Part shown: piece by piece, positions 7,595 to 53,818 of the stretch
How the letters are laid out: each line of letters opens with the position of its first letter
Position numbering within the stretch: the stretch's first letter is position 1
Assembly: GCA_020073305.1 (NCBI GenBank)
Contig: JAIQFK010000002.1
Location: 186,001 to 250,000, forward strand
DNA: 64,000 bases
Direction of reading: 5' to 3'
DNA from: Terriglobia bacterium
GTDB lineage: Bacteria; Acidobacteriota; Terriglobia; Bryobacterales; Bryobacteraceae
Notes under the pieces: model-generated
What the model saw: only the letters and a program-made list of their open reading frames with translations
What the model was told of the DNA's origin: nothing
Databases searched by the model: none
Translations under genes and position numbers: made by a program

Positions 7595-8260
7595 ATGGGA
7601 ACACTGACGGGCACCCTCCCACTCCCGGCGTTCGGCAGCCGGGTAGCGGTCAAAACGAGAGTGGACTATCAGAACAGCCAGGAAGGTGCGCTCGTACGCC
7701 GGGCCCAGTCCGGCGATGAGGCGGCGTTCCGCGAGATTGTCGAGCACTACCAGTCGAAGGTGTTCTCCATCATTCACGGCATCGTGCGGCAGCGTAATGA
7801 CGTGGAAGACATTGCACAGCAAGTGTTTGCGAAGGTTTACTTCTCCATCCGCAACTTCGATTTCCGCAGCTCTCTGATCACCTGGATCTACAAAATTACG
7901 GTGAATGAGTGCTTTGACTACCTGCGCAAGAAGAAGGTCCGCAAGCTGGTGTACGAGAGCGACCTAAGCGAAGACGAGGTTCGCAGGGTGGAGAATACCG
8001 AGCCCTCGGTCGACCGGCAGGCGCCCGCCGACGAAACTCTGGCGCGGCGCGACTACGTGTTGAAGCTCCTGAGCCGGGTTTCCGAGGAAGAGCGGACCCT
8101 GCTCCTGCTCAAAGAGGTCGAGGGCCGTTCGGTGGAAGAATTGGCGCAAATGACAGGCATGAACGAGAATACAATTAAAGTAAAATTGTTTCGTGCCCGT
8201 CAGAAGCTGGTGAAGGCGGCGCAGCGGTTGGATCGCGCTCCCGGCCTGGTGGCGGGATGA
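7595..8260 (+). CDS. ECF-type RNA polymerase sigma factor
   Basis: The product (221 residues) has sigma region 2 (LVRRAQSGDEAAFREIVEHY, then DVEDIAQQVFAKVY and the WIYKITVNECFDYLRKKK recognition helix for the -10) and region 4 (LLLLKEVEGRSVEELAQMTGMNENTIKVKLFRARQKL for the -35), with no region 3, so it is a group 4 (ECF) sigma. It is followed after 84 nt by its probable anti-sigma factor and then a Spy-like protein. The annotated ATG at 7595 lacks a ribosome-binding site; a GTG at 7661 giving MDYQNSQEGALVRRA is a credible alternative because family homology begins there. Confidence 0.92.
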   Translation: MGTLTGTLPLPAFGSRVAVKTRVDYQNSQEGALVRRAQSGDEAAFREIVEHYQSKVFSIIHGIVRQRNDVEDIAQQVFAKVYFSIRNFDFRSSLITWIYKITVNECFDYLRKKKVRKLVYESDLSEDEVRRVENTEPSVDRQAPADETLARRDYVLKLLSRVSEEERTLLLLKEVEGRSVEELAQMTGMNENTIKVKLFRARQKLVKAAQRLDRAPGLVAG

Positions 8261-8344
8261 TTTTGGGTGGTTCCCGACGTGGGCGGAGACCCGCGCGGGA
8301 TTGGTTCTCAGGTTAAAAATGGTCGGACTGTAAGGGAAGAAAAT

Positions 8345-8782
8345 ATGCATCAGGTGATTCTGGACCGGCTCGAGGAATATCTCTCCGGCTCGCCTAGTTC
8401 GCGAGAGTTTACGACACACCTGGAGTCCTGCGAGGAATGCCGCGCAGAAGTTCAGGAAATGAAGGAACTCTCCGGCGCTTTGTCCGCTCTGCGCGCCCCG
8501 GAGGAAATCACTCCGTCTCTCGGGTTTTATGCCCAGGTGGCACGCCGCGTGGAAGCCCAGCGCCCACGTTCGCCGTGGAGTTGGGTTTGGCTAGAGCCCG
8601 CGTTTGGCAAGCGCGTCGCATTTGCGTCGCTCATGTCGCTGGTAGTTTTGGGCAGCTATCTGATCACACGCGAGACCGAATATTCGGCCGGCCCGCCGCG
8701 GCCGGAAGCGATTATGGCCCAGCAGGCGCCCGCCGATAATCCGGACATGATCCTCGCAACGCTCGCTTCCTACGAGCCCTAA
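8345..8782 (+). CDS. Membrane anti-sigma factor with zinc-finger domain
   Basis: From the ATG at 8345, which is preceded by AGGGAAG, the protein has 145 residues. The N-terminal domain has HLESCEEC (H25, C29, C32), the His-x3-Cys-x2-Cys signature of zinc-binding anti-sigma domains that clamp ECF sigma factors. One transmembrane segment follows (about residues 90-107, VAFASLMSLVVLGSYLI), then a short periplasmic Pro/Ala-rich tail of about 38 residues. A longer ORF from 8267 adds 26 residues that look non-coding. Position immediately after an ECF sigma gene supports the pairing; it should hold that sigma at the inner membrane until an envelope signal is sensed. Confidence 0.88.
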   Translation: MHQVILDRLEEYLSGSPSSREFTTHLESCEECRAEVQEMKELSGALSALRAPEEITPSLGFYAQVARRVEAQRPRSPWSWVWLEPAFGKRVAFASLMSLVVLGSYLITRETEYSAGPPRPEAIMAQQAPADNPDMILATLASYEP

Positions 8783-12254: not shown

Positions 12255-15002
12255 TTATTCGTATCTTAGGGCGGTCATCGGATCCACGCGCGCCGCTCTC
12301 CTCGCCGGCAGATATCCCGCGAGCATCGCGATCGCCGCCAATATCAAAGCGGCGCCGGCGATAGTTGCCGGATCCGTCGCCTTCAGCTCGAACAGGTAAT
12401 CCTGAAGGAATCTCGTGGCCGCCAGCGCTACCGGCAGTCCGATCGCAACACCCAGCACCACAAGCCGCGAGGTTTCGCGCAGCACCATCCACAGCATTTC
12501 TCCGCTCCGCGCGCCCAGCGCCATGCGAATCCCGATCTCACTGGTCCGGCGCGCTACGGCATACGACATCGTCCCGTACAGTCCCACGCACGCCAGCACC
12601 AGCGCAAGAACGCCGAAAACTCCTGAAAGTTCCGCCAGCATCCTCTCGCGGATTACGGTACTGTCCACTCGCTGCGCCAGCGTAGTTACCTCGCTGATCA
12701 TCAAATCACGATGCATCTCGCGCAGTAAGCGCCTCACCTGCGAAGCCATCGCCAGCGGGTCTCCCGCGGTTTGCACCTCAACGGACTGGATCGGGTACGG
12801 CGCCTGCGCGAGCGGCAGATAGAACATCGGCTCCACCGGAGCCCGCAGGTCGTTATACTTCGCGTCCCGCAATATTCCGACAATCTCGAACGGCGTGCCC
12901 TTCAATTCATCGACGTTCGGGACTGCCAGTTTCCCCAGCGGGTTCTGACCCGGCAGGTACTTCCGCGCCAGCGCCTCGTTGATCACCAGGACCCTGTGCG
13001 CTCGCTCATCATCGCTCGCCTTGAACCCGCGGCCCATGACAACCTGCATCCCCACCGTTTCAAAATACCGGCTCGAAACCATGTTGAGGTGCGCAGGCGC
13101 CCCCTCGCGGGTCGCGCCTCGAATGACGAGCGATGTATAAAGATCGTTTTCGCTGAACAGCCCGAGCCACGAAACACTGGCCGAGCGCACTCCGGCGAGA
13201 GCGTTCAGCCGCTCCTCCAGGTCGCGGAACACACCGGGCAGCCGCCTTTGTGCGACGGCAAAATCCGGCTTGCCCTGAACCCGCTCGACGTCCTCCATTT
13301 GCACTTCCAGCATCAAGACATTCTGCAGCCGGAATCCCGGATCGAGACGATGCAGATTGGCGAGGCTGTGCGCCAGCAGCCCGGCGCCAATGAGCAGCAC
13401 TAGCGAAAGAGCGACCTGAGAAACCAGCAGCACGCGGCTGAGACGCTGGCGAGGGCGGCCGCCGGTTTGAGTACGTGAGGATCCTTTCAATGCTGTTGCG
13501 ATTTCGAGCTGGGTGGCCTGCCAGGCAGGCACAAGCCCGAACAGAAATGCGGACGCGAAACAAACCGCCGTGGTGAAGGCAAGCACGCGCGTATCGGGTG
13601 AGATCTGAAGCGATAGCATCCCGCCAGTGGCAATGAAAGTCGCCAGAGCGTCGGCCAGCCAGTAAGCGACCAGCAACCCTGCCGCGCCGCCCATCAGTGC
13701 CAGCAGGACACTTTCAGTGAGCAACTGCCGCATCAGCCGGTAACGCCCCGAACCAAGCGCCAGCCGCAGTCCGATCTCGCTACGCCGCGACGTGGCCCTC
13801 GCCAGCAGCAGATTTGCGACGTTCGAGCACGCAATCAACAGCACCAGTCCGACCACAGCCATGATGATGCGAAGGCTCTGCGCGTACTTCTCGCGTAACA
13901 TTCCCAGTCCGCCGCCGCCGGGTTTCAAAGTGATGTGGTAATCCGAAATTTTCCTGTCGACCGGTTGCGACGGCCCCGGAGACCTCAGCGATTCTTCGAT
14001 TCCTCGCCCCACTTCCCCGGCCAGGACCTGCCGATACGCTGCCGTCATAGCCGCCTCAGCCTGACGGACGCTCACGCCCGGCTTGAGGCGCGCCATCACG
14101 CCCGAGAAGAACGCCCAATTGCGCTGGTTCAGTTCCTCCGGGCTCTTCGCCTGATTCATCGGCGCCCAGATATCCGGTGCGTATCCGGTCCGGTGTCCTC
14201 GAAACTCGCGCGGCGTGACGCCGATGATCGTATACATTTCGTGGTTGATCGAAATTTTCTTGCGCGAGACTGCCGCATCCCCGCCGTACTGCCGCTGCCA
14301 CAATCCATAGCTGATCACGGCCACGCGATCTTGAACGCCGCCCGTGCCCGGCAGCCGGTCATCTGCTTCGTTGAACATTCTTCCCATCAATGGCCGAACA
14401 CCCAGCACGGAAAAGTAATTGCCGGAAACAATCGTGCCCGGAACATAAGCGGCCTCCAGCTGCGGCGCCCCAGGAATGGTTACCATCATCCGAGGGCTAT
14501 CCGAGATCGCCGAAATCCCTGAGAAGACCTGCTGTTGATCGCGCACATCACGGAAGGTCGGATACATGAAAATCCAGCTCGCCCCCTTGCATTCGGCGCC
14601 AACCAGGACCAGCCTGTCGGGGTCTTCTACCGGCATGCTCTTGAGAAGCACCGTATCCATCACGCTGAACACCGCCGTGTTCGCCCCAATGCCCAGAGCC
14701 AGGGACAGTACCGCAACCGCTGTAAATCCAGGGCTGCGGCGCAGCATGCGCAGCGCATAGCGCAAATCCTGCGCGATCTCCTCGACCGGCCGCCACTGCC
14801 AGACTTCTCGGCTGTTTTCTTCGAGCAGCAGCGTATTTCCGAACTCCCTCTGGGCCCGGTATCGCGCTTCCTCCGGCGCAACGCCGCTTTCCACCAGCTT
14901 CTGCACTTTCATTTCGAGGTGCTGCCGCATCTCGTCGCCAAGCTCGCGATCGAATTTTCGATGCCCAAAAATAAACCGCAGCCCGCGCCAAAGTCTACTC
15001 AT
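12255..15002 (-). CDS. ADOP-type MacB-like ABC permease 1
   Basis: The 915-residue protein has the layout of acidobacterial duplicated orphan permeases: a short cytoplasmic prefix (LWRGLRFIFGHRKFDRELGDEM), a first transmembrane helix ([21 protein letters not shown]), a MacB periplasmic core domain, an FtsX triple-helix block, a second periplasmic core domain and a final FtsX block ending LPARRAARVDPMTALRYE. It has no ATPase domain, so it needs a partner encoded elsewhere or acts as a mechanotransmission component. GAGGAAAGAC lies just before the ATG. It is the last of three tandem paralogues behind padR. Substrate unknown; macrolide or peptide efflux is only a family-level guess. Confidence 0.9.
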   Translation of the reverse strand: MSRLWRGLRFIFGHRKFDRELGDEMRQHLEMKVQKLVESGVAPEEARYRAQREFGNTLLLEENSREVWQWRPVEEIAQDLRYALRMLRRSPGFTAVAVLSLALGIGANTAVFSVMDTVLLKSMPVEDPDRLVLVGAECKGASWIFMYPTFRDVRDQQQVFSGISAISDSPRMMVTIPGAPQLEAAYVPGTIVSGNYFSVLGVRPLMGRMFNEADDRLPGTGGVQDRVAVISYGLWQRQYGGDAAVSRKKISINHEMYTIIGVTPREFRGHRTGYAPDIWAPMNQAKSPEELNQRNWAFFSGVMARLKPGVSVRQAEAAMTAAYRQVLAGEVGRGIEESLRSPGPSQPVDRKISDYHITLKPGGGGLGMLREKYAQSLRIIMAVVGLVLLIACSNVANLLLARATSRRSEIGLRLALGSGRYRLMRQLLTESVLLALMGGAAGLLVAYWLADALATFIATGGMLSLQISPDTRVLAFTTAVCFASAFLFGLVPAWQATQLEIATALKGSSRTQTGGRPRQRLSRVLLVSQVALSLVLLIGAGLLAHSLANLHRLDPGFRLQNVLMLEVQMEDVERVQGKPDFAVAQRRLPGVFRDLEERLNALAGVRSASVSWLGLFSENDLYTSLVIRGATREGAPAHLNMVSSRYFETVGMQVVMGRGFKASDDERAHRVLVINEALARKYLPGQNPLGKLAVPNVDELKGTPFEIVGILRDAKYNDLRAPVEPMFYLPLAQAPYPIQSVEVQTAGDPLAMASQVRRLLREMHRDLMISEVTTLAQRVDSTVIRERMLAELSGVFGVLALVLACVGLYGTMSYAVARRTSEIGIRMALGARSGEMLWMVLRETSRLVVLGVAIGLPVALAATRFLQDYLFELKATDPATIAGAALILAAIAMLAGYLPARRAARVDPMTALRYE

Positions 15003-15026
15003 GTCTTTCCTCGTCGCGTCTCCGCG

Positions 15027-17660
15027 TCATTCATAACGGAGGGCCTCCATGGGATCGATCCGCGCCGCGCGCGATGCCGGAATGTAAATCGCGATCAACA
15101 CGACAGACAGCAGTAGCAGAGGGACGCAGAGGAAGATCGCCAGGCTGTGCACTCTGAATCCCTGCAATATCGCGGCGAAGAGCCCGGGTAGAGGCGCGGC
15201 GGCCGCCAGACCCACGGCTGCGCTCACCAGCGCGAGCAGCATGCCCTTGCCCATCACCAATCGCAGCACATCGGCGCGGTGCGCTCCGAGCGCCATACGG
15301 ATGCCGATCTCGTGCGTGCGCTGCGCGACGGAATACGAAATGACGCCGTAGATCCCGACGGCGGCGAGCAACAGGGCCATGACTCCGAATATTCCGAGCA
15401 AGGCGTCGAACTGGTAGTCACCGCCTTCCAGGTCGTCGATCAGACGAGAGATCGTTCGCACACTGGCGATAGGCTGATCGGGATCGACCGACCACACGGC
15501 GCTCCGGAGCGCACGCGCCATCAGATTCGGATCACCGGCCGCGCGCACGGCCAGCCACATTTCCGGTTCCGTAGGAGTCTGCAAGTACGGCTCATACACT
15601 TGCGCATCGTCTTCTTTCGGACCGAAAAACGCCTTGATGTTCCCAACGATCCCCACAATCTGGCTCCAGTCCGGCGCATCAAGGTCGATACGGATGTACC
15701 GCCCCAGCGGGTTCTGTCCCGGAAAGAAGCGTTCCACAAATACGCGGTTGACAATGGCCACTCGAGGGGCGCGTGCGTTATCGGATTCGCGAATTGCGCG
15801 GCCCCGAATCAGCGGAATGCTCAGGACACGGAACTGGCCGGGACTCACCCGGAAATATCGCGCCTTCGGCCGTTCTGCCGCGGGCACAGCCGGCTGACCC
15901 TGGATGCTGAAGGTTCGCTTTTCGGCGTTGAACGGCATGGCATTCGCAATCCCCGCGGCTTCGACGCCGGGCAGTCCCTGGAGCCTCTCGAGCACGCTTT
16001 GAAAGAAAGCGGTCCGCCGAGCCGGCTCATGATATCGGGCATTCGTCAGAGACACAGCGGCTGTCAGTACCTGCTTCGGGTCATACCCGAAATCGGCGCG
16101 CAGTTCTTCAGCCGTGGCCTTGATGATGAGACCCGCGCCGGTCACCAGCACCATGGCGAGCGCGATTTCGCCGCCGACCAGCACGTTACGGCCCCAACCG
16201 CGACTGAGATCGCCAGTGCGGCCTCCCTGGCGCAGCGTGCTTTGCGGATCAGTGCGTGAAACCCGGATCGCCGGCGCCAGCCCGAACAACAGGGCCGCAC
16301 CCATCGAAGCCAGGCAGGTGAAGGCCAGCACGTTCTGGTCGAGCGTGACGTTAGTGGCAATCGCGCCGACGTACTCATTGAAGTTGAGCATGCCGCGCAG
16401 AATAGAAATGCCCCAGTACGCGGCAACCAGACCGCAGCCCCCGCCGATCAGCGCAATCAAAAGGCTCTCCACCAGCAACTGGCGGATCACACGCACGCGC
16501 CCGGCGCCCAGCGCGGTTCGAATCGCGATCTCCTGCTGGCGCTTCGCGGCTCGCGCGAGCAGCAAATTCGCGATATTCGCGCACGCGATCACCAAAACCA
16601 GCGCAACTGCAGTCATGAGCAACATCAGGCCCGGCCGAATGACGTCTTCCTCGATGCCGTATTCCTGAAGCGTCATGACGTTTGCGCCCCAGCCTTTTTC
16701 GGACGCCGGATAGCTTTGCTCCGCGCGATGTGCCAGGGTGCTCATCTCTGCCCGCGCACGCTGAAGATCGATGCCGGACCTCAACCGGCCGAAAAGCACG
16801 AAGTCACGAGCGTCGCGAGCGTGCGGCCCGGGATTTTCTGACGCAAGCACCAACGGGGTCCACAGGCGCGGCAGAAAGGCCACTTGCCGGAAGGACGCCG
16901 GCATCACCCCGATGACCACATACTCCTCGCCATCGAGCGCTACCGTTCTTCCAATGACGTTCGGATCGGACGCAAACCGCCGCTGCCAAAGGCCGTAAGT
17001 CAGAATCACAACGTGATCGCGGCCCGCCTGATCTTCACCTGGCAGGAATGTTCGCCCCAGAAATGCCGAAACCCCGAGCACTCGGAAATAGGTCGCGGTC
17101 ACTCGCATTCCCGTGAGGCGCTCCGGTTCTCCGGCGCCCGTGAGGCTGAAGTCGTGATAGGGATCCGCGGCAGCCAGGTCCGCAAACGCGTGGTTCGCCT
17201 CCCGCCACGCCAGAAAATCAACCGCCGAAATCCGTCCCCGCTCGAGCGCTCTCGCCGGGTTTGTGGCGACCACCGCAACCGCGCGATCTGGATCCGCCAC
17301 CGCAGGCTTCTTCAGCAGCCAGCCGCTGATCAGGCTAAAAATGCTCGAATTGACCGCGATCCCCAGCGCTAGCGTGGCCGTCACGACGAAAGTAAATCCC
17401 GGATTCTTGCGCAGCATTCGCGCGCCATAGCGCAGATCCTGCAACAGTGTTTCCAGCCAAACCCATCCCCACACTTCGCGACTGGTCTCGCGTAACAACA
17501 GCGTGTTCCCGAACTGCCGGCGCGCCGCGTACCGGGCATCATCTGTCCCGCCACCGGCTTCCGTTTTCATATCCACATGAAGCCGGATCTCATCTTCCAG
17601 ATCGCGCTCAAACCGCCCGCGCCGCATCACGAATAGCAACTTGCGCCAGAGCTTGCTCAT
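15027..17660 (-). CDS. ADOP-type MacB-like ABC permease 2
   Basis: The product is 877 residues from the ATG at 17660, which has GAGGAAAG upstream and begins [24 protein letters not shown] like its paralogue; a longer ORF from 17723 would run into the preceding gene. It repeats the architecture of prefix, helix, periplasmic core domain, FtsX, core domain, FtsX and the terminal IPASRAARIDPMEALRYE. Gaps to neighbours are 24 and 19 nt, so the three permeases form one transcript. The two FtsX blocks contain the conserved NIANLLLARAAKRQQEIAIRTA type loop. It is clearly closer in its first 100 residues to permease 3 than to permease 1, indicating successive tandem duplication. Confidence 0.9.
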   Translation of the reverse strand: MSKLWRKLLFVMRRGRFERDLEDEIRLHVDMKTEAGGGTDDARYAARRQFGNTLLLRETSREVWGWVWLETLLQDLRYGARMLRKNPGFTFVVTATLALGIAVNSSIFSLISGWLLKKPAVADPDRAVAVVATNPARALERGRISAVDFLAWREANHAFADLAAADPYHDFSLTGAGEPERLTGMRVTATYFRVLGVSAFLGRTFLPGEDQAGRDHVVILTYGLWQRRFASDPNVIGRTVALDGEEYVVIGVMPASFRQVAFLPRLWTPLVLASENPGPHARDARDFVLFGRLRSGIDLQRARAEMSTLAHRAEQSYPASEKGWGANVMTLQEYGIEEDVIRPGLMLLMTAVALVLVIACANIANLLLARAAKRQQEIAIRTALGAGRVRVIRQLLVESLLIALIGGGCGLVAAYWGISILRGMLNFNEYVGAIATNVTLDQNVLAFTCLASMGAALLFGLAPAIRVSRTDPQSTLRQGGRTGDLSRGWGRNVLVGGEIALAMVLVTGAGLIIKATAEELRADFGYDPKQVLTAAVSLTNARYHEPARRTAFFQSVLERLQGLPGVEAAGIANAMPFNAEKRTFSIQGQPAVPAAERPKARYFRVSPGQFRVLSIPLIRGRAIRESDNARAPRVAIVNRVFVERFFPGQNPLGRYIRIDLDAPDWSQIVGIVGNIKAFFGPKEDDAQVYEPYLQTPTEPEMWLAVRAAGDPNLMARALRSAVWSVDPDQPIASVRTISRLIDDLEGGDYQFDALLGIFGVMALLLAAVGIYGVISYSVAQRTHEIGIRMALGAHRADVLRLVMGKGMLLALVSAAVGLAAAAPLPGLFAAILQGFRVHSLAIFLCVPLLLLSVVLIAIYIPASRAARIDPMEALRYE

Positions 17661-17679
17661 GTCTTTCCTCCCCGCGTCG

Positions 17680-20310
17680 TCACTCGTACCTGAGCGCCAC
17701 CATCGGATCGACCCTGCCCGCACGCCTCGCCGGCAGATACGCCGCCGCAGCAGCGACTACACACAACAGCAGTGGCACGAAGATGAACGTCGCCCCATCC
17801 GTTGGACTGATGTCCACCAGCAGACTTCCCATAAAGCGCGTCGCGCCCACTGCCGCAAACAACCCGATGACCACGCCCACCAGCGCCAGCAGCAATGCTC
17901 TACCCAGCACCATGCCGGTCACCTGCCGCCCGCGCGCTCCCAGCGCCATGCGGATACCCATTTCCTGTGTCCGCCGGCTCACCGAATACGCAATTACGCC
18001 ATAGATTCCGACCGCGGCCAGAAGCAGAGCGATCCCCGCGAACAGAGAAAGGAGAATCACGTTGGCGCGCCGCGGAGCCAGCGAAGCCGCAGCCCGCTCT
18101 TCCAACGTCATCACGGAGTCAATAGGCTGCTCCTTACTCACCGACCAGATTGCCGAGCGCACTGCCGCTGCCAGTGCTGTTGGGTCGCCCGAAGTCCGGA
18201 CGGCAATTCCGGCAAACGGCCAGTCCGCTTGGCCAAACGGACGGTAGATCTCCGGATCAGGCGCATCGGCAAGCTGTTCATGCCGGGTATCGCCCACGAC
18301 GCCCACAATCTCACGGATCGCGGGCGTATCGCCGTCAGCCACGCTGATTCCTTTTCCAATGGCGTCTTGGTTGGGAAAAAATCGCCGCGCGAGGGTCTCG
18401 TTGACGATGATCACGCCCGGCCCGCCGTCGCGATCGCGCGTATCGAAATAGCGCCCCCGCGACAGATGGATGCCCATCGCCCGGAAATAATGTGGCGTCA
18501 CCACGTGAAACCCGGCCGTGCTTTGTTCGCCGAATGGCAGCGGCGGCTGACCCGGAATGGTAAAGTTTCGTTGCGCCGACCAGCCGGTCAGCGGCGGAGC
18601 ATTGATGGCGCCCGCGGCCACCACGCCCGGCAACACCTCAATTCGCTCGATGGCCGACTGCAACAATTTCCCCATGGCAGCGTGGCCGTCGGCTCCGCTC
18701 GACCCACCCATCAGTTGCAGCGTCAGCACGTGCTCCGTACGGAAACCGTAGTCGCGCGCCTGCAAACGCAGGAAGCTGCGGATCAGCAATCCAGCCGCAA
18801 TCAGCAGTACTAACGACAAAGCCATCTGCGAAACGACCAACCCGCTCCGCAGCCGCGCTTTTCCACGTGCTTCGGTGAAGGTCCTTCCTCCCGCCTTCAG
18901 CGTGTCATTGGGTGAAGCCGATGAGCGAAAGGCCGGTGTCGTGCCAAAAACCGCGCCCGAGACCAGCGAAAGCAACAGCGTGAATAACAGGACTGGCATG
19001 TTGATCCAGGCCTGTGGATGCGATGTGTCCACTACGTCGGTGAGGTTGCCGGGAATAAGTGAAGTCAATGCGCCAACGCCCCAGAATGCGAGCGCCAAAC
19101 CCGCGGTGCCGCCAAGCATCGCCAGCACGAGGCCCTCGGTAAGGAACTGCCGGAACAGCCGCGCGCTTCCCGCACCCAGCGCCAGCCGGAGGGCGACCTC
19201 GCGCTCCCGGGCGCTGCCGCGCGCCAGCAACAGGTTCGCCACATTGACGCAAGCGATCAGCAGCATCCCCAAAACGGTCGTCTGCAGCAGCACCAAAGAC
19301 GTCTTACGATCGCCCACGTAAAAATCGCGGATCGGCCACAGCTCGACTCCCATGCCTGCGTCGTTATCCGGATATTCCCGGGCAAGCTGTTTCGCGATGG
19401 CGTCCATTTCGGCCTCTGCGCGCCGAAAAGAGATGCCGGCCTTCAGCCGCCCGAACACGCGCAGGGCATGGTCTTTGCGGTCGGAGAAGAAATCAGGTGG
19501 AAGCGCCAGCGGCGTCCACAGAACCGTCCGGCTGGATGGATGCGCAAACTCGGGCGGCATCACTCCCGCTACGGTGTAGAGCTGATGGTTGAGTTGGATG
19601 GAGCGTCCGATCACTTGGCGATCCGATCCGAAGCGCCGCTGCCACAGCGGGTAACTCAAAACAACCACGTGATCCTTGCCTGGCTGGCACTCTTCCGTCA
19701 GAAACGTTCGTCCAAGAAACGGCTTGGCGCCCAACATCGGAAAGATATTGCAGGAGAACATGTAGCCGGCAACGGCTTCCGGATTCGTCGCGCCGGTGAA
19801 CGTGTAGACTTCGTCCCAGGAGTACCCCATGTCTTCGAATACGTGGTTGCGGGCCCTCCAATCGGCGAAGTCGGCCGCCGTTACGGTGTTGATGTGCGCC
19901 TCGCGAATGTTCCATTCCCAGACCGCCGCCAAACGGCCCGCGTCGCGGTAGGGGAGAGGACGCAACAAGACGGCGTTCACCAGGCTGAAGATCGCCGTGT
20001 TGGCGCCAATGCCCAGCGCCAGTGACAGTACAGCCGCTGTGGTGAATCCCGGATTCTTGCGCAGCATCCGCGCGCCGTAACGCAGATCTTGCAGGAGGGT
20101 CTCGAGCCGGACCCATCCCCACATATCGCGGCTGGTCTCGCGTAACAACAGCGTGTTCCCGAACTGCCTTTTCGCCGTGTAACGATCGTCTTCTGTTCCG
20201 CCGCCTGCTTCGGCTTTCATCTCCAGATGAACGCGCATCTCGTCTTCAAGATCGCGGTCGAACCGTGAGCGCCGGATCCCGAACAGCAGCTTCCGCCAGA
20301 GCTTGCCCAT
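17680..20310 (-). CDS. ADOP-type MacB-like ABC permease 3
   Basis: This first permease of the operon has 876 residues and starts [20 protein letters not shown] after a GAGGAAAA ribosome-binding site. It has the same two-fold MacB core plus FtsX design, including [24 protein letters not shown] in the first FtsX block and [20 protein letters not shown] in the second, and ends [18 protein letters not shown]. It lies 84 nt downstream of padR; the intervening DNA carries two back-to-back hairpins that could attenuate or differentially stabilise the message. No ATPase gene accompanies it in this window. Confidence 0.9.
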
Positions 20311-44182: not shown

Positions 44183-45304
44183 ATGCGATCTCTTGCTGCC
44201 GTTTCGGTTCTGTTGTTTCTTCCGATTGGATTGCTGCGTTCGGCCGACCCCGAGGCGCCTGCAGCTGCCCGTCTCAAAAACCTGGTGACGCTCGAAGGCG
44301 TACGGGAGAATCAGTTGATCGGCTATGGGCTGGTAGCAGGCCTGGCGGGTCAGGGCGACCGGCAGCAGACCGTCTTCTCCCTGCAAAGCCTGACGAACAT
44401 GTTGGAACGTATGGGAGTGTCGGTTTCGCCCACGGCGATTCAGGTGAAGAACACGGCGGCGGTTATGGTCACCGCAACGTTACCTCCCTTTGCCCAGCCG
44501 GGTACGCACATTGACATCACTGCGTCGTCGATCGGTGATGCGCGGACTCTGCAGGGCGGGCTGCTGCTGCTGACTTCGCTCAAAGGAGTGGACGGCCAGA
44601 CGTACGCCGTGGCACAGGGGCCGCTCGTGACCGGCGGTTTTGTGGCGGGCAAAGGCGGCACCAGCCAGACCGTGAATCATCCGACGGTGGGCCGCGTGCC
44701 CAATGGAGCCATCGTGGAACGGCCGGCGCCCTCGCGGGCGCCGGACACCCAGATCCGGCTGCAACTGCGCCAGGCGGATTTCACCACATCAGCGCGCATC
44801 GCCAGGGCGGTGAACGGCAGGTTCGCCCCGGCGGCGGCGCCAGTGGCACGCGCGGACAACGCGGGGATGGTCAGCGTGAAGGTGCCGGCGGAGTATGCGG
44901 TCCGACCGACCGAATTCGTGGCGGAACTGGAAATGCTGTCCGTCCCGGTCGACCGCGCGGCGCGTGTGGTCATCAACGAACGCACCGGGACCATCGTGAT
45001 GGGCAAAGACGTGCGGATCGGTCCTGTGGCCATCCTGCAGGGCAATCTGACAGTGGAGATTCAAACCGCCTTCGCCGTCTCGCAGCCGGCGCCGCTAGCG
45101 GGCGGAACCACCCAGGTTGTGCCTCAAGTCGGAGTGACCGCGAAGGAGGAGAAGGCGCGCAACGTGGTGCTCAAGCAGGGTGCCACGGTGGAAGAACTGG
45201 TGCGCGCGCTGAATGCCATTGGCGCGACAGCGCGCGATGTCATCGTGATTCTGCAGAACCTGCGAGCCGCCGGCGCCCTCGAAGCCGAGCTGGAGGTGAT
45301 CTGA
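44183..45304 (+). CDS. flgI: Flagellar P-ring protein FlgI
   Basis: The 373-residue product has a Sec signal peptide (MRSLAAVSVLLFLPIGLLRSADP) and the highly conserved RLKNLVTLEGVRENQLIGYGLVAGLAGQGD, TLPPFAQPGTHIDITASSIGDARTLQGG and VVINERTGTIVMGKDVRIGPVAI blocks of FlgI. It polymerises in the peptidoglycan layer as the P-ring. It follows flgH by four bases and shares one base with flgJ. Confidence 0.97.
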   Translation: MRSLAAVSVLLFLPIGLLRSADPEAPAAARLKNLVTLEGVRENQLIGYGLVAGLAGQGDRQQTVFSLQSLTNMLERMGVSVSPTAIQVKNTAAVMVTATLPPFAQPGTHIDITASSIGDARTLQGGLLLLTSLKGVDGQTYAVAQGPLVTGGFVAGKGGTSQTVNHPTVGRVPNGAIVERPAPSRAPDTQIRLQLRQADFTTSARIARAVNGRFAPAAAPVARADNAGMVSVKVPAEYAVRPTEFVAELEMLSVPVDRAARVVINERTGTIVMGKDVRIGPVAILQGNLTVEIQTAFAVSQPAPLAGGTTQVVPQVGVTAKEEKARNVVLKQGATVEELVRALNAIGATARDVIVILQNLRAAGALEAELEVI

Positions 45305-45672
45305 TGGACAGGATCACCGGGGCCATGCCGCTGCTCTCTGGCGCTGCCGCCCACCGGGACGAGCCGAAGCGCATCGCCGAGGCTGCCAAGCAGTTTGAGT
45401 CGCTGCTGATCGCCCAGCTTCTGAAATCCACGCACGACTCCGGAGCCGGCGGATGGCTGGGCACAGGAGACGATCAAGCTGGCGCTCAGGCCGTAGAGCT
45501 GGCGGAAGAACAAATGGCGCAAGCCCTGGCGCAACAGGGCGGCTTAGGCTTGGCCCGTTTGGTGGTGAGCGGTTTACAGAGAGAATCGAAACCGGCGGAT
45601 CCCGCGTCTCCAACCCCCGCCGCAGGCAGAGATGGCACTCGTTCGCACCCCGCTCAGAAACTCCAGCCCTGA
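45304..45672 (+). CDS. flgJ: FlgJ rod-cap domain protein (no muramidase domain)
   Basis: The 122-residue product has RIAEAAKQFESLLIAQLLKSTHDSG and VELAEEQMAQALAQQGGLGLARLVV, the rod-binding half of FlgJ. The peptidoglycan-hydrolase half of enteric FlgJ is missing. An SLT-fold gene on the opposite strand at 46524-47123 may have supplied that function, but its catalytic residue is altered. FlgJ caps the growing rod. It ends inside the 3' part of the convergent fliS gene (19-base overlap). Confidence 0.9.
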   Translation: MDRITGAMPLLSGAAAHRDEPKRIAEAAKQFESLLIAQLLKSTHDSGAGGWLGTGDDQAGAQAVELAEEQMAQALAQQGGLGLARLVVSGLQRESKPADPASPTPAAGRDGTRSHPAQKLQP

Positions 45673-46112
45673 GCAGCGGGTGCAGGCTCGGTGGCCGGCG
45701 GATTCCAGGCCCGCGCGATAGGGGCGGTCGCCGTTGTGGAGGGCTTCGGAGCGGGCACCTGATTCCAGACTTCGGCCAGGGTCTCAAGGAGACTCAACAC
45801 TTCGGCCAGCGGGGCATCGGCCTGTTCGAAGTTGGCCGCAAGCAGCCGGCGCTGCATGTAATCGTAGAGCTCGGCCAAACGACGGCTCACTTCGGGGGCG
45901 CGGTCATGATCGAGCGACACGGTGAGTTCCCCCAGAATCTCGAACGCTTTGGAAATGGCCGCGGAACGGCCGCGGATGTCTGCCGCTGCGAGAGAAAGTC
46001 GCGCCGCTTCGACCGCTCCCATGGCACCCTTGTAGAGCAGGCGTACCAGCTCCATGGGATCCGCCGAGAGAATCTTTTCCGTCCGGTATGCTTCTTGCGC
46101 GCGCATCGACAT
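45654..46112 (-). CDS. fliS: Flagellin chaperone FliS
   Basis: From the ATG at 46112, after AAGGAAGGAAAC, the product has 152 residues. MSMRAQEAYRTEKILSADPMELVRLLYKGAMGAVEAARLSL and ISKAFEILGELTVSLDHDRAPEVSRRLAELYDYMQRRLL form the FliS four-helix bundle that prevents premature flagellin polymerisation. The C-terminal 40 residues are Pro-rich and variable. It is transcribed with flaG from a sigma-28 promoter, while flagellin itself is not in this window. Confidence 0.93.
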   Translation of the reverse strand: MSMRAQEAYRTEKILSADPMELVRLLYKGAMGAVEAARLSLAAADIRGRSAAISKAFEILGELTVSLDHDRAPEVSRRLAELYDYMQRRLLAANFEQADAPLAEVLSLLETLAEVWNQVPAPKPSTTATAPIARAWNPPATEPAPAAQGWSF

Positions 46113-46168
46113 CGCGTTTCCTTCCTTCCACACCACATATCGGTCAACGGGGAGAGCGCTTGAAGGAA

Positions 46169-46453
46169 TTATCCGGCGTCGCACTCGGGACCGGCCGCCC
46201 GGCCCAGTACTTCCTCCGGGGGGACTTGCCGGATCAGTTCCCGGGACTTGCGCCTGACCAGTCGAACGATGGCGCGCCCTGTGCGGCGCTCCAGGACGAA
46301 AGCGAGCTCGCTGTCTTCGCCGAACAGTTCCGCCGCGTTGACGGCGTGGACGGCCTGGATCAACTGCCGGTTTTGGGCCTGCAGTTCCGCAGAGCCGGAT
46401 ACGGGAGCCGGCGCCGCGGCCAGGGGCGCGGTATGCAAAGGTGCGACGTCCAT
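46169..46453 (-). CDS. flaG: FlaG-family flagellar protein
   Basis: The start is uncertain between ATG 46459 and 46453; 46453 has GAGG six bases upstream and gives 94 residues. The second half reads LQAQNRQLIQAVHAVNAAELFGEDSELAFVLERRTGRAIVRLVRRKSRELIRQVPPEEVL, the FlaG domain that affects filament length in several bacteria. It lies between the SLT-fold gene and fliS, with a sigma-28 promoter just upstream. Confidence 0.85.
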   Translation of the reverse strand: MDVAPLHTAPLAAAPAPVSGSAELQAQNRQLIQAVHAVNAAELFGEDSELAFVLERRTGRAIVRLVRRKSRELIRQVPPEEVLGRAAGPECDAG

Positions 46454-46523
46454 TGGCATCCTCGTCCGCCACGGCGACCGGTGCCGCGGCATGGCGGATC
46501 TACGGCCCCCTCGGAGAAGGCCC

Positions 46524-47123
46524 TTATGGGTTCTTATCGGCCGGGGCCGGAGCAATTTGAGCAGGCGGCGCCGGGGTTTGAGCCGCGGAAGACCCGGCCG
46601 GAACGGCGGCCGGTTGACCGTCGTAAGCGGCGATCGCCCGATCCCAGTCTCCGTGGTTGGCGTCGAGGAGCTGTTTCAGAAGGCGCGCGCCGGCCGCCAG
46701 GTTTTGCCGGGGGTCGAAGGCATCGGTCACACCAAGCGCTTCCAGGGTTTGGGGCATCAACTGCATCAACCCCTGGGCGCCGCTGGGGGAGACCGCGCAG
46801 GGGCGCGCGCCGGATTTTTGACGGACGATGGCGCCGAGCGCATCGGTCTTGAGCCCATTGGCGCGCGCCGCTTCTTCGAGCAGAGGTTGCAGGTCCGGCT
46901 CGCTGAGGGCGGGGCAGTCGGTGAGATCGGCGCGCCTGGCAGGAGGCGATAGCGGCGCGGGCGGAGGCAGGATAAAGAACGACCCGGTGGCCTGGCCCAT
47001 CGAAACCTGCTTGCGGACGGCGGAGAGCTGGCGTTCAACCGAAACGTTCATTACGGCGGATAGCTTGTCCGCTGGGGGCGGCGTCTCGCCCGCGAACATG
47101 ACAAAGACCAGGATCCAGACCAT
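46524..47123 (-). CDS. SLT-fold lytic transglycosylase homologue, probably inactive
   Basis: From ATG 47123 (GAGG five bases upstream; an in-frame ATG at 47138 is less likely) the product has 199 residues with a signal-like start (MVWILVFVMFAGE). The SLT fold is clear: LLEEAARANGLKTDALGAIVRQKSG then AVSPSGAQGLMQLMPQTLEALGV and the AAGARLLKQLLDANHGDWDRAIAAYDGQPAAV end. The catalytic Glu expected in the 'RQES' motif is Lys103 (codon AAA at 46815-46817), and AYNAGP is AYDGQP. It likely binds but does not cut peptidoglycan, possibly a rod-stage helper. Confidence 0.85.
   Translation of the reverse strand: MVWILVFVMFAGETPPPADKLSAVMNVSVERQLSAVRKQVSMGQATGSFFILPPPAPLSPPARRADLTDCPALSEPDLQPLLEEAARANGLKTDALGAIVRQKSGARPCAVSPSGAQGLMQLMPQTLEALGVTDAFDPRQNLAAGARLLKQLLDANHGDWDRAIAAYDGQPAAVPAGSSAAQTPAPPAQIAPAPADKNP
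46534..46560 (-). promoter_or_regulatory. Sigma-28 promoter upstream of flaG-fliS
   Basis: On the minus strand TCAA-N15-GCCGATAA matches the FliA consensus with a perfect -10 (46534-46541) and optimal spacing. It lies at the 3' end of the SLT-fold gene and about 80 nt before flaG; a start near 46527 is expected. Confidence 0.7.
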
Positions 47124-47269
47124 GGGCGCCTCTCGCATCCATCGGTATTTTTGAGCGCCAATGCGCTACTCTCCGCAAAAGAAAATGGCTCAAAGATCCA
47201 CGGGGCGGGCCGAAACAGGATGGTGGGAGGCATACGCACTTGAACGCCACAAAGGCCGGCCGCTGTTCC

Positions 47270-47488: not shown

Positions 47489-47510
47489 CGGCGGCAAATC
47501 TTTGCCGCCG
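47489..47510. promoter_or_regulatory. Perfect 22-bp palindrome upstream of flgB
   Basis: A 10-bp half-site CGGCGGCAAA is repeated exactly in inverted orientation with a 2-bp centre. It is about 70 bp upstream of the inferred sigma-54-like promoter start of flgB, the distance at which enhancer-binding activators usually sit. Confidence 0.55.
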
Positions 47511-47549
47511 GCGTGCGCGTGCATCCTATGTACAATCACTGCCGCTCGA

Positions 47550-47565
47550 TGGCAGGTTACGTGCA
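47550..47565 (+). promoter_or_regulatory. Sigma-54-like promoter before flgB
   Basis: TGGCAGGTTACGTGCA matches TGGCAC-N5-TTGC with the GG-N10-GC spacing intact and three of the four conserved flanks. Its expected start is near 47576, only 4 bases before the flgB ATG, so the message would be nearly leaderless. Confidence 0.5.
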
Positions 47566-47579
47566 CTCGAACGGCTGGC

Positions 47580-47927
47580 ATGCTGGACCCCGTTGCCCTA
47601 CACATCGAGCGCTACATGGACTTGCTGAGCGCGCGCCAGAAGCTGGTGGCCGCGAATATCGCCAACGCCGACACCCCCGGATACAAAACGCGAGACCTCG
47701 ACTTCCAAGCTGAATTTCAGAGCGCAACCGCTCAGATCTCGAGCGCGTCGCCGGTGGCGGTGGAAGTGCCCGGGCTCAAGGTCAAAAATGACGGCAACAA
47801 CGTAAGCGTCGATCGCGAGGCGCGGCTGCTGGCGGAAAACGCTTTGCGTTTCCACATGGCCTCGGAGCTGATGCGTTCCGAGCTGCGCATGGTGCGGTCG
47901 GCCGTCACCGAAGGGAAGAACGGATGA
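47580..47927 (+). CDS. flgB: Flagellar basal-body rod protein FlgB
   Basis: The ATG at 47580 is preferred because it gives 25 residues before NIANADTPGYKTRDLDF, as in model FlgB; longer frames from 47502 or the next ATG at 47616 do not. The 115-residue product ends ASELMRSELRMVRSAVTEGK, as expected for a proximal rod protein. It opens the flgB-flgC-fliE-fliF-fliG-fliH-fliI-fliJ arm and overlaps flgC by four bases. No Shine-Dalgarno sequence is visible, in keeping with a near-leaderless message. Confidence 0.93.
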   Translation: MLDPVALHIERYMDLLSARQKLVAANIANADTPGYKTRDLDFQAEFQSATAQISSASPVAVEVPGLKVKNDGNNVSVDREARLLAENALRFHMASELMRSELRMVRSAVTEGKNG

Positions 47928-48373
47928 GCCTGTTCTCCGCTCTTTCCGTCAGCGCCTCGGGGATGACTGCCCAGCGGACCCGCGCAGAGCTGCTGGCGGA
48001 GAACCTGGCCAATGCGGAAACCACCCGGACCCCGGAAGGAGGCCCGTACCGCCGCAAAGACGCCGTGTTCGCGACCGATTACACCGAATCGCCCTTCGCA
48101 TCGGTCTTCGAAGCGCAAATGAGCGCGGTGGCGGGCGGGGGGCCGGAGGGCGTGGGCGTGGCCGACATCGTGGTGGACGACCGCGAGCCCGAGCGGCGCT
48201 ATCTCCCCGGCCATCCTGACGCCGATGCGCAGGGTTACGTGGCCTTCCCGCGCGTGAATCCGGCCGAAGACATGGTGGACCTGATGGGCTCGGCGCAAAA
48301 CTACGAGGCCAACGTGGCCGCCATCTCGGCCGTTAAGGACATGATCCAGCGCTCGCTCGATCTGTTCCGCTGA
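47924..48373 (+). CDS. flgC: Flagellar basal-body rod protein FlgC
   Basis: The 149-residue product has LFSALSVSASGMTAQRTRAELLAENLANAETTRTPEGGPYRRKDAVF and the C-terminal RVNPAEDMVDLMGSAQNYEANVAAISAVKDMIQRSLDLF, the FlgC rod signature at usual length. It is a proximal rod component. Overlap with flgB by four bases indicates translational coupling. Confidence 0.95.
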   Translation: MSLFSALSVSASGMTAQRTRAELLAENLANAETTRTPEGGPYRRKDAVFATDYTESPFASVFEAQMSAVAGGGPEGVGVADIVVDDREPERRYLPGHPDADAQGYVAFPRVNPAEDMVDLMGSAQNYEANVAAISAVKDMIQRSLDLFR

Positions 48374-48377
48374 TCCC

Positions 48378-48683
48378 ATGTCCACGCCTCTCGCACCCGT
48401 CTCGAACGTAGCCCCGGCGCCGCTGGCGACGCCACTCCCCGGATCGCGCGCGCCGGGCCCCGCGGCTGGTTTCGGAGCGTTGTTCGAGAACGCCGTTCGC
48501 GGCGTCGAAAACGTGCGCCAGGAAAGCACGCAGGCCGTGGAAAAATTTCTCACCGGCGAAGGCGGAGAGCTGCACACAACCGTGCTGGCCACGCAACGAG
48601 CCGAACTGGCCTTTCAACTTTTTCTGCAGGTGCGCAACAAGGTAGTGGAAGCCTATCAGGAGATCATGCGCATGCAGACCTAA
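48378..48683 (+). CDS. fliE: Flagellar hook-basal-body protein FliE
   Basis: The 101-residue product ends GELHTTVLATQRAELAFQLFLQVRNKVVEAYQEIMRMQ, the diagnostic FliE C-terminal helix that links the MS-ring to the rod. The N-terminus is Ala/Pro-rich. It follows flgC by four bases and precedes fliF by 24. Confidence 0.94.
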   Translation: MSTPLAPVSNVAPAPLATPLPGSRAPGPAAGFGALFENAVRGVENVRQESTQAVEKFLTGEGGELHTTVLATQRAELAFQLFLQVRNKVVEAYQEIMRMQT

Positions 48684-48707
48684 CGTCCCGTCTGACGCGG
48701 GCCGCTC

Positions 48708-50390
48708 ATGAATCAACTTACGAACCTGGTTAACAGTCTCTCGGCGCGGCAGCGCGTCACCATCCTGCTCGTCGCCGCAGCCGTGGTGGCCGGGCTGGTC
48801 AGCTTTTCGCACTGGCGGCGGGAAAGTGATTTCCGCCCGCTCTACGAGTCGCTCGCGGCCGAAGATGCCGGAGCGGTGGTTCAGAAACTGAAGGAGTCGG
48901 GGGTGGAATACCGTCTGGCGGAGAACGGCGGCACGGTGCTGGTCCCCTCGGCCCGGGTAGCGGAATCCCGCCTGGGGCTGGCCGTAGCAGGCCTGCCCAA
49001 GAGCGGCCGCATCGGATTTGAGCTGTTCGACAAGACCAATCTGGGCGCCACCGAGTTCGCCGAGCACATCAATTATCATCGCGCTCTCGAAGGGGAACTG
49101 GAGCGCTCGGTGATGTGCCTGGGCGAGGTCGAGCAGGCACGGGTGCATGTCACCTTTCCCAAGGAGTCTCTTTACACGGAAGAGCGCCAGCCGGCCAAAG
49201 CCAGCGTGCTGGTGCGGCTCAGGCCGGGGGCGCGGATGTCGCCGGCCAACGTGACGGCCATTAGTTACCTGGTCTCGAGCGCGGTCGAGGGACTGGCGCC
49301 CGAAGCCATCTCGGTCCTGGACATGCAAGGCAACCTGCTGAGCCGGCCCCGGCGCTCCGGCAACCCCGGAGATGAACCTTCGGAGGTGCTGCTGGATTTC
49401 CGCCACGGCATCGAGCGCGACCTGCTCAACAAGATCAACGCCACGCTCGAGCCGCTGGTGGGAGCCGACAAATTCCACGCCGGCGTCTCGGTGGATTGCG
49501 ACTTTTCGAGTGTAGAACAGAGCGAAGAGATTCTCGATCCCAGCCGCTCGGTGATGATCAGCTCGCAAAAGAGCGAAGACATCAGCGGCGGCACCGGCGC
49601 CTCCGGGGTGCCGGGCACGGCGTCCAATCTGCCACGGCCCACGTCCCGGCCGGGAACGATGCTCGCCGGGGTCTCGCGCCGCACGGAAAATATCGCCTAT
49701 CAATCCACCCGCACCGTGCGGCATACGCGCCTGCCTCAGGGCACGGTCCGGCGGCTGTCGCTCGCGGTGCTGGTCGATCAGGCGGTGCGTTGGGAAGGCG
49801 AGGGAGCCAAGCGCAAGCGCGTGCTGGTTCCGCCCGCGCCCGAAACGCTGAAGGCGATCCACGACCTGGTGGCGGGTGTGGCGGGCTTCACGCCGGACCG
49901 CGGCGATCAGCTCATCGTGGAGACGCTGCCATTTGAAACCACGCTGCACCCTGAAACCGACACCGGACTGCCGGCGCCGCCGCCGTCCGCCAACCGGCCT
50001 CTGCCGCGCTGGTTCGACGCCTTGCGCGATCCCAAGATCGGCGGCGCCGCTGCCGGCGGAGCGGTGGTGGTGCTCCTGGTGCTGTTCCTGATGTCGCGGC
50101 GCGGCCGCAAGCGCGGTGCGAGCGCATCCATGCCGGCGGCTTTCGAAGGAGCGGAAGCCCTGCCCTCGCTTGAAGAACGGGTGCAAGCGCGGCTCGCCGA
50201 GCAAGCCCAGCTCGAGCAAAAGCTCGAGCAGGAAGCGCTGAGCTCCATCAAGATGCCGAAAGTCACCAGCAAGAAGGCCGACGTGCTGGCCAGGCAAATC
50301 AAAGAAAGCTCCAAAAAGGATGCGTCAGTAGGAGCGCATGTGCTGCGCGAATGGATTGGGGAGCAGATGCCGAAAAAGAAGCCGTACTGA
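48708..50390 (+). CDS. fliF: Flagellar MS-ring protein FliF
   Basis: The 560-residue product has an N-terminal membrane helix (VTILLVAAAVVAGLVSF), ring-building motifs (DFRPLYESLAAEDAGAVVQKLKESGVEYRLAENGGTVLVP and VEQARVHVTFPKESLY), a periplasmic domain, a second helix near residue 450 (GGAVVVLLVLFLMS) and a cytoplasmic tail that binds FliG. Length is normal for FliF. It forms the MS-ring. Confidence 0.96.
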   Translation: MNQLTNLVNSLSARQRVTILLVAAAVVAGLVSFSHWRRESDFRPLYESLAAEDAGAVVQKLKESGVEYRLAENGGTVLVPSARVAESRLGLAVAGLPKSGRIGFELFDKTNLGATEFAEHINYHRALEGELERSVMCLGEVEQARVHVTFPKESLYTEERQPAKASVLVRLRPGARMSPANVTAISYLVSSAVEGLAPEAISVLDMQGNLLSRPRRSGNPGDEPSEVLLDFRHGIERDLLNKINATLEPLVGADKFHAGVSVDCDFSSVEQSEEILDPSRSVMISSQKSEDISGGTGASGVPGTASNLPRPTSRPGTMLAGVSRRTENIAYQSTRTVRHTRLPQGTVRRLSLAVLVDQAVRWEGEGAKRKRVLVPPAPETLKAIHDLVAGVAGFTPDRGDQLIVETLPFETTLHPETDTGLPAPPPSANRPLPRWFDALRDPKIGGAAAGGAVVVLLVLFLMSRRGRKRGASASMPAAFEGAEALPSLEERVQARLAEQAQLEQKLEQEALSSIKMPKVTSKKADVLARQIKESSKKDASVGAHVLREWIGEQMPKKKPY

Positions 50391-53383: not shown

Positions 53384-53818
53384 ATGCGGAACTTCCGGTT
53401 TTCGCTGGAACGAATCCTGAGCTGGCGGCGCTTGGAATTGCAGGCTGAGGAGGCGCGCCTGGCGGTTTTGTTTGCCGAGCGCAGCCGTCTGGACGCCGCA
53501 CGCACCGAAATACGCGCCGCACGCGAAAGCGCGGCCAGCCGGCTGTGGGCGGCCGGAACGGTCGACGGGAGCGAACTGGAGTCTTTGCAGGGCTACCGCC
53601 AGCGGCTGGAAAAGAAGATGGTCGCGATGGATCGCCGGAGGGCGCAATCCGCAGAGCAGATTGCCCTCGAGCAGGTCCGGGTGGTCGACGCCCACCGGCG
53701 CGTTCGGCTGCTCGAAAAACTGAGAGGGCGGCGGCTCGAGGAATGGCGGACGGCTGGGCAGCGCGAACTCGAGAACTTCGCCTCCGAGGCCTTTCTGGCG
53801 CGCTGGCATCGGGACTAG
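53384..53818 (+). CDS. fliJ: Flagellar export chaperone FliJ
   Basis: The 144-residue product is a pure coiled coil: FRFSLERILSWRRLELQAEEARLAVLFAERSRLDAARTEIRAARESAASRL and then LQGYRQRLEKKMVAMDRRRAQSAEQIALEQVRVVDAHRRVRLLEKLRGRRLEEWRTAGQRELENFASEAFL. This fits FliJ in length and context after fliI. It completes the export stalk. Sequence identity within FliJ is always low, so context carries much of the call. Confidence 0.85.
   Translation: MRNFRFSLERILSWRRLELQAEEARLAVLFAERSRLDAARTEIRAARESAASRLWAAGTVDGSELESLQGYRQRLEKKMVAMDRRRAQSAEQIALEQVRVVDAHRRVRLLEKLRGRRLEEWRTAGQRELENFASEAFLARWHRD

Follow-up and report, generated by a model that had tools for sequence, protein, structure and literature searches.

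We describe a flagellar SLT-domain protein in which lysine stands in place of the catalytic glutamate, and which is probably a genus-level, non-catalytic pseudo-lytic transglycosylase that occupies the SLT seat at the rod while a paralogue does the cutting. Flagellar rod assembly is thought to require a local wall-cutting enzyme. The gene (P0001) lies on the minus strand at 46524..47138 of the window, the 64,000-nucleotide stretch of Terriglobia bacterium (Bryobacteraceae) DNA analyzed here, and forms an ORF of 204 aa from its first ATG; an alternative start at 47123, the second in-frame ATG (M6), is preceded by AGAGG at a distance of five bases and could be the one actually used. SLT (PF01464) is the single Pfam domain of the protein, with 70.7 bits vs. 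a cut-off of 21.3. Sequence and alignment put K108 (codon AAA, 46815..46817, minus strand), in the context VRQKSG, where the catalytic Glu would be expected, and in a sequence alignment it pairs with the Glu of MltF's YQES. A study on Borrelia describes an ES-GLMQ-AYNAG motif in lytic transglycosylases (PMC8517470). S109 of the ES motif and GLMQ (residues 123-126) are retained in P0001 and in the second Lys-bearing protein described below, and sequence and alignment show AYDGQP (residues 171-176; 46611..46628, minus strand) for AYNAGP. The nearest named relatives of P0001 belong to Bryobacterales and other Acidobacteriota.

The gene sits between FlaG and an FlgB-like gene within a large flagellar cluster that occupies roughly 24.4-53.8 kb of the window. 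Pfam matches in this cluster comprise FliM, a flagellin-like protein (taken as FlgL), FlgK, an SRP-type GTPase (taken as FlhF), a sigma factor, an FliN-type protein, FHIPEP (FlhA), FlhB, export protein family 1 (FliR), FliP, FliO, FlgE, FlgF- and FlgG-like proteins, FlgA, FlgH, FlgI, FlgJ, FliS, FlaG, rod proteins, FliE, FliF, FliG, FliH, and the export ATPase; a frame at 53384-53818 with no Pfam match is taken as FliJ. On the plus strand, the P-ring gene FlgI (44183..45304, by Pfam) is followed by FlgJ (45304..45672, 122 aa). FliS (45654..46109, start approximate, with a longer open frame at 45654-46472) and FlaG (46169..46495), both assigned by Pfam, lie on the minus strand, and flgJ and fliS share 19 bases at their ends (45654-45672). 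P0001 is opposite in direction to FlgI and FlgJ and divergent from a plus-strand rod protein gene, taken as FlgB from its Flg_bb_rod match (47502..47927, start uncertain), which is followed on the same strand by a rod protein taken as FlgC, then FliE and FliF (47924..50390, by Pfam). Because Rod-binding is the sole Pfam match of FlgJ (26.4 bits vs. a cut-off of 25.1) and the protein covers only positions 14-105 of a 294-position FlgJ model, it consists of the rod-binding part without the muramidase half, as a preliminary description of this DNA had stated.

Three genomes of the genus were compared, namely that of the window (G000), G035, and G094. Contig C443 of G035 encodes a protein 48% identical to P0001, with VAEKSQ and AYDGNP at the corresponding positions, and the order FlgI-FlgJ-FliS(-)-FlaG(-)-SLT(-)-FlgB-FlgC-FliE-FliF is common to both genomes. 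The Lys codon is AAG in G035 vs. AAA in G000. Since the congener has a syntenic gene that again carries Lys, with a different codon, and AYDGNP, a sequencing error or single-genome artifact is excluded. AAA is indeed one base from a Glu codon and the window's assembly consists of 51 contigs, yet Lys appears with another codon in another assembly, in company with eight further shared losses, and the probability that we attach to an error of sequencing or assembly is accordingly minute. A frameshift hidden after AYDGxP was also considered and rejected, as translation of the other two frames in both species yielded no IPETxxYV remnant. The preliminary description correctly read RQKS at the catalytic site and traced it to a change from GAA to AAA; the AAA codon is present, but a GAA origin is a conjecture about history, and the sister gene uses AAG. 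Similarly, AYDGQP is present where AYNAGP was expected, but to call it decayed is doubtful, as AYDGxP together with Lys is found in both species and looks fixed. In the third genome, G094, neither FlgI nor FliF nor flagellin had a match, and there is no K protein (as we call the Lys-bearing form); its best P0001 relative aligns from residue 58 only.

Lys is rare among relatives. Of the 117 loci in a first sample, 115 gave an aligned row; Glu was read in 112 and Lys in three, and these three come from two genes, since one gene was sampled twice. Among the matches listed, 192 loci, almost all of them from the family, supplied 71 distinct SLT proteins for comparison; Glu is present in 69 and Lys in the remaining two, which are those of the two congeners. 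In an alignment of 64 rows (A3), the catalytic column reads E in 62 and K in two; the proteins omitted from the 71, four of over 420 aa plus L009, L143, and L253, all have Glu. A profile built from the K pair scored the two K proteins at 390 and 366 bits, and the next best match, a protein of G072 with 162.3 bits, has Glu. This profile was searched in 237 genomes of the family and 257 of the order (the latter include the former), and among the matches listed no K form was found outside the genus. The K form is thus known from two genomes of one genus only. Variation in the third motif also occurs in a Glu-bearing protein, L250 (G073:C5, ORF 7616-8413), which has AYRIGP for AYNAGP.

How closely SLT genes of this type are tied to flagella was considered both by locus and by genome. 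Of 84 FlgI loci fetched, some on stretches that end at contig ends, 20 had an SLT match and 64 had none; an SLT gene beside FlgI is therefore not general, and the place of the gene by itself says little about what its product does. Eighteen of the 20 SLT genes encode Glu and are co-directional with FlgI, and the two that encode Lys are both opposite to it. Nevertheless, opposite direction is not special to the Lys form, since in G063, where FlaG and FlgB are on one stretch with a FliM-like gene between them, an SLT gene at the far end of the cluster runs opposite to the cluster and encodes Glu. At the genome level, strong relatives of P0001 (best E no higher than 10^-23.5; the genome of the window itself not counted) occur in 103 of 131 FlgI-bearing genomes vs. 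four of 18 genomes without FlgI, in counts uncorrected for kinship. Two other thresholds gave 97 or 106 of the 131, and still four of the 18. With 28 of the 131 FlgI-bearing genomes having no strong relative, the link of the P0001-type SLT to flagella is a correlation. Four genomes (G016, G023, G101, and G134) have a strong P0001 relative and no FlgI that we could find; they may be incomplete, or the SLT may have another role there.

The losses in the K proteins extend well beyond the catalytic Glu. Conservation among the 62 Glu rows reaches 90% or more in 33 columns, of which 23 are retained in P0001 and 19 in the G035 protein; nine are lost in both (E108, Y161, L169, N173, A174, G175, E190, T191, and Y194). 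We would assign eight of these nine, the exception being L169, to the catalytic site or the cleft. A C-terminal IPETxxY motif, defined from relatives in the present sample, and the helix that goes with it are missing in both K sequences and in the K model, and are present in the Glu-bearing (E) paralogue and its model. In the AlphaFold2 model of P0001, residues 81-170 form the SLT domain with pLDDT of 94-98. A helix at residues 23-49 (46992..47072, minus strand) precedes the domain in the model, and a similar segment is found in E-type SLTs of flagellar loci. No helix is predicted beyond residue 174, where the E paralogue model has two extra helices (219-225 and 232-246) after the AYN-bearing helix. 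The K model matches MltF with a Z of 15.7 and an rmsd of 2.4 over 102 aligned residues, and Slt, MltE, and MltC with Z of 12.2-12.8. By this modeling, the K protein is predicted to retain the lysozyme-like SLT fold of solved family 1 lytic transglycosylases.

Because the Glu is absent in two species, along with most residues of AYNAG and ET..Y, the K protein is very probably catalytically dead as judged from sequence, and the earlier suggestion of a non-catalytic protein in the flagellar cluster is very probably right. In the flagellar SLT of Borrelia, E580Q behaves like a deletion (PMC8517470), and loss of the same Glu should therefore abolish cutting. One could nonetheless imagine residual action of the K protein on glycan, with the role of the acid taken over elsewhere in the site, for example by D173 of AYDGxP, which stands for the AYN asparagine in the two K proteins; S109 and GLMQ, the retained neighbors in the active-site motif, would fit such activity. 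However, Y161, the final helices, and the conserved E, T, and Y of the C-terminal motif are missing in addition, and the lytic transglycosylase mechanism needs Glu, to go by Borrelia E580Q (PMC8517470) and by structures titled as inactive mutants E503Q and E64Q. We therefore think residual glycan activity improbable. The preliminary description also proposed a peptidoglycan-binding helper, a view that does not fare well, as the protein has also lost other conserved motif residues, together with the final two helices of its domain. We take these other residues to be glycan-cleft positions. Docking at the rod, or regulation of an active paralogue, is likelier than peptidoglycan binding.

The two K genes differ over 102 SLT codons at 37, 20, and 67% of first, second, and third codon positions, and 35 of their 58 identical residues are encoded by different codons. 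This pattern of codon-position differences (0.37/0.20/0.67) indicates that the K gene is, on sequence comparison, under purifying selection, i.e., constrained at the protein level. The corresponding figures for the E paralogue pair of the same two genomes are 21, 10, and 43% over 105 codons. A dying gene, decaying and functionless while the second-cluster SLT serves both flagellar systems, would account for the lost C-terminal motif and for the greater divergence of the K pair than the E pair (SLT-domain identity of 57 vs. 75%), a difference that relaxed selection would explain too; the six other SLT-domain matches in the window genome would also be in keeping with decay. Yet the frame is open in both species, differences at the third codon position far exceed those at the second, and the same Lys and AYDGxP occur with different Lys codons at the same cluster position, and we consider decay rather unlikely, if somewhat less so than residual activity on glycan. 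Phylogenetically, the two K proteins form a clade inside the Glu family, with a support of 100; support for its sister group is only 62, so any assignment of the K copy to a particular E lineage would be tentative. In the FlgI tree, the two K loci group together, apart from the second-cluster FlgI of G000 and G035.

Both G000 and G035 have two FlgI and two FliF genes each, and therefore two flagellar gene sets. The FlgI and FliF copies are on contigs C4 and C48 of G000 and on C443, C240, and C24 of G035. In both genomes, the second cluster includes an SLT gene whose product has the Glu, AYNAGP, and the IPET motif. The one in the window genome (C48, L135) resembles the K protein in belonging to the same family, in its similar place in the cluster, and in its N-terminal segment; it differs in having Glu, AYNAGP, IPET, the C-terminal helix, and co-direction with FlgI, none of which the K protein has. 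On its sequence, the second-cluster SLT is the foremost candidate for the cutting role, which agrees with the preliminary description's proposal that the cutting enzyme is elsewhere. Seven SLT-domain matches, P0001 included, were found in the window genome, a 51-contig assembly, and FlgJ-type glucosaminidase (PF01832) had no match in that genome.

Separate flagellar SLT proteins are known. SltF of Rhodobacter (Cereibacter) sphaeroides has a signal sequence and uses the general export pathway; rod proteins modulate it, and it docks on FlgJ via its C-terminus (PMC7277832). The K protein is like SltF in being an SLT protein in a flagellar set whose FlgJ has no muramidase domain (PMC7277832). Unlike SltF, which is described there as active and as binding FlgJ by its C-terminus, it has neither the Glu nor the C-terminal part of the domain. 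Similarly, it resembles BB0259 of Borrelia burgdorferi in being a flagellar SLT separate from FlgJ, and the NCBIfam model BB0259_flg_lyt is among the nearest models, with 36.6 bits for the K protein and 85.1 for the E paralogue vs. a cut-off of 234. In contrast to BB0259, which needs E580 and has a long N-terminal part (PMC8517470), the K protein has Lys and is without that part. In the literature searched, with most subscription papers outside it, we found no description of an inactive or pseudo lytic transglycosylase, and pseudoenzyme together with lytic transglycosylase retrieved only a paper on a putative protease, as judged by its title. The K protein is probably a conserved, non-catalytic member of the flagellar SLT group, with a function that we propose below.

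As a route to the present state, the ancestor would have been a secreted flagellar SLT enzyme of the sort seen in this bacterial family, with a signal peptide, an N-terminal helix, and an SLT domain. Within the genus, the copy in one cluster would have lost the Glu, the final two helices, and most residues of AYNAG and ET..Y, while retaining the fold and the N-terminal helix, and would since have been under purifying selection. The K protein would then be exported to the periplasm and, with no cutting of its own, fill the place of an SLT on FlgJ or a different protein of the growing rod; a catalytic SLT, most likely the second-cluster paralogue, would open the peptidoglycan. As the C-terminal part of the domain is lost, docking, if any, would use a surface other than the C-terminus used by SltF, and the N-terminal helix is a candidate.

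A more tentative possibility is that the inactive twin regulates or places the catalytic paralogue of the second system, two flagella sharing one cutter, by analogy with degenerate LytM activators. EnvC and NlpD are such factors. Degenerate LytM factors have a wall-hydrolase fold without catalytic residues and regulate active hydrolases (PMC8416486). The K protein differs from them in belonging to an unrelated fold and enzyme class, and a regulatory role would be an analogy. A conserved, apparently non-cutting SLT in a rod cluster, with an intact SLT in the second cluster of the same cell, offers a natural test of non-cutting roles such as docking, timing, or restraint of a wall-damaging enzyme.

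Elsewhere in the window, three consecutive long frames of 915, 898, and 876 aa with similar N-termini occupy 12255-20310 on the minus strand, and they presumably resemble the permease paralogues common in Acidobacteriota.
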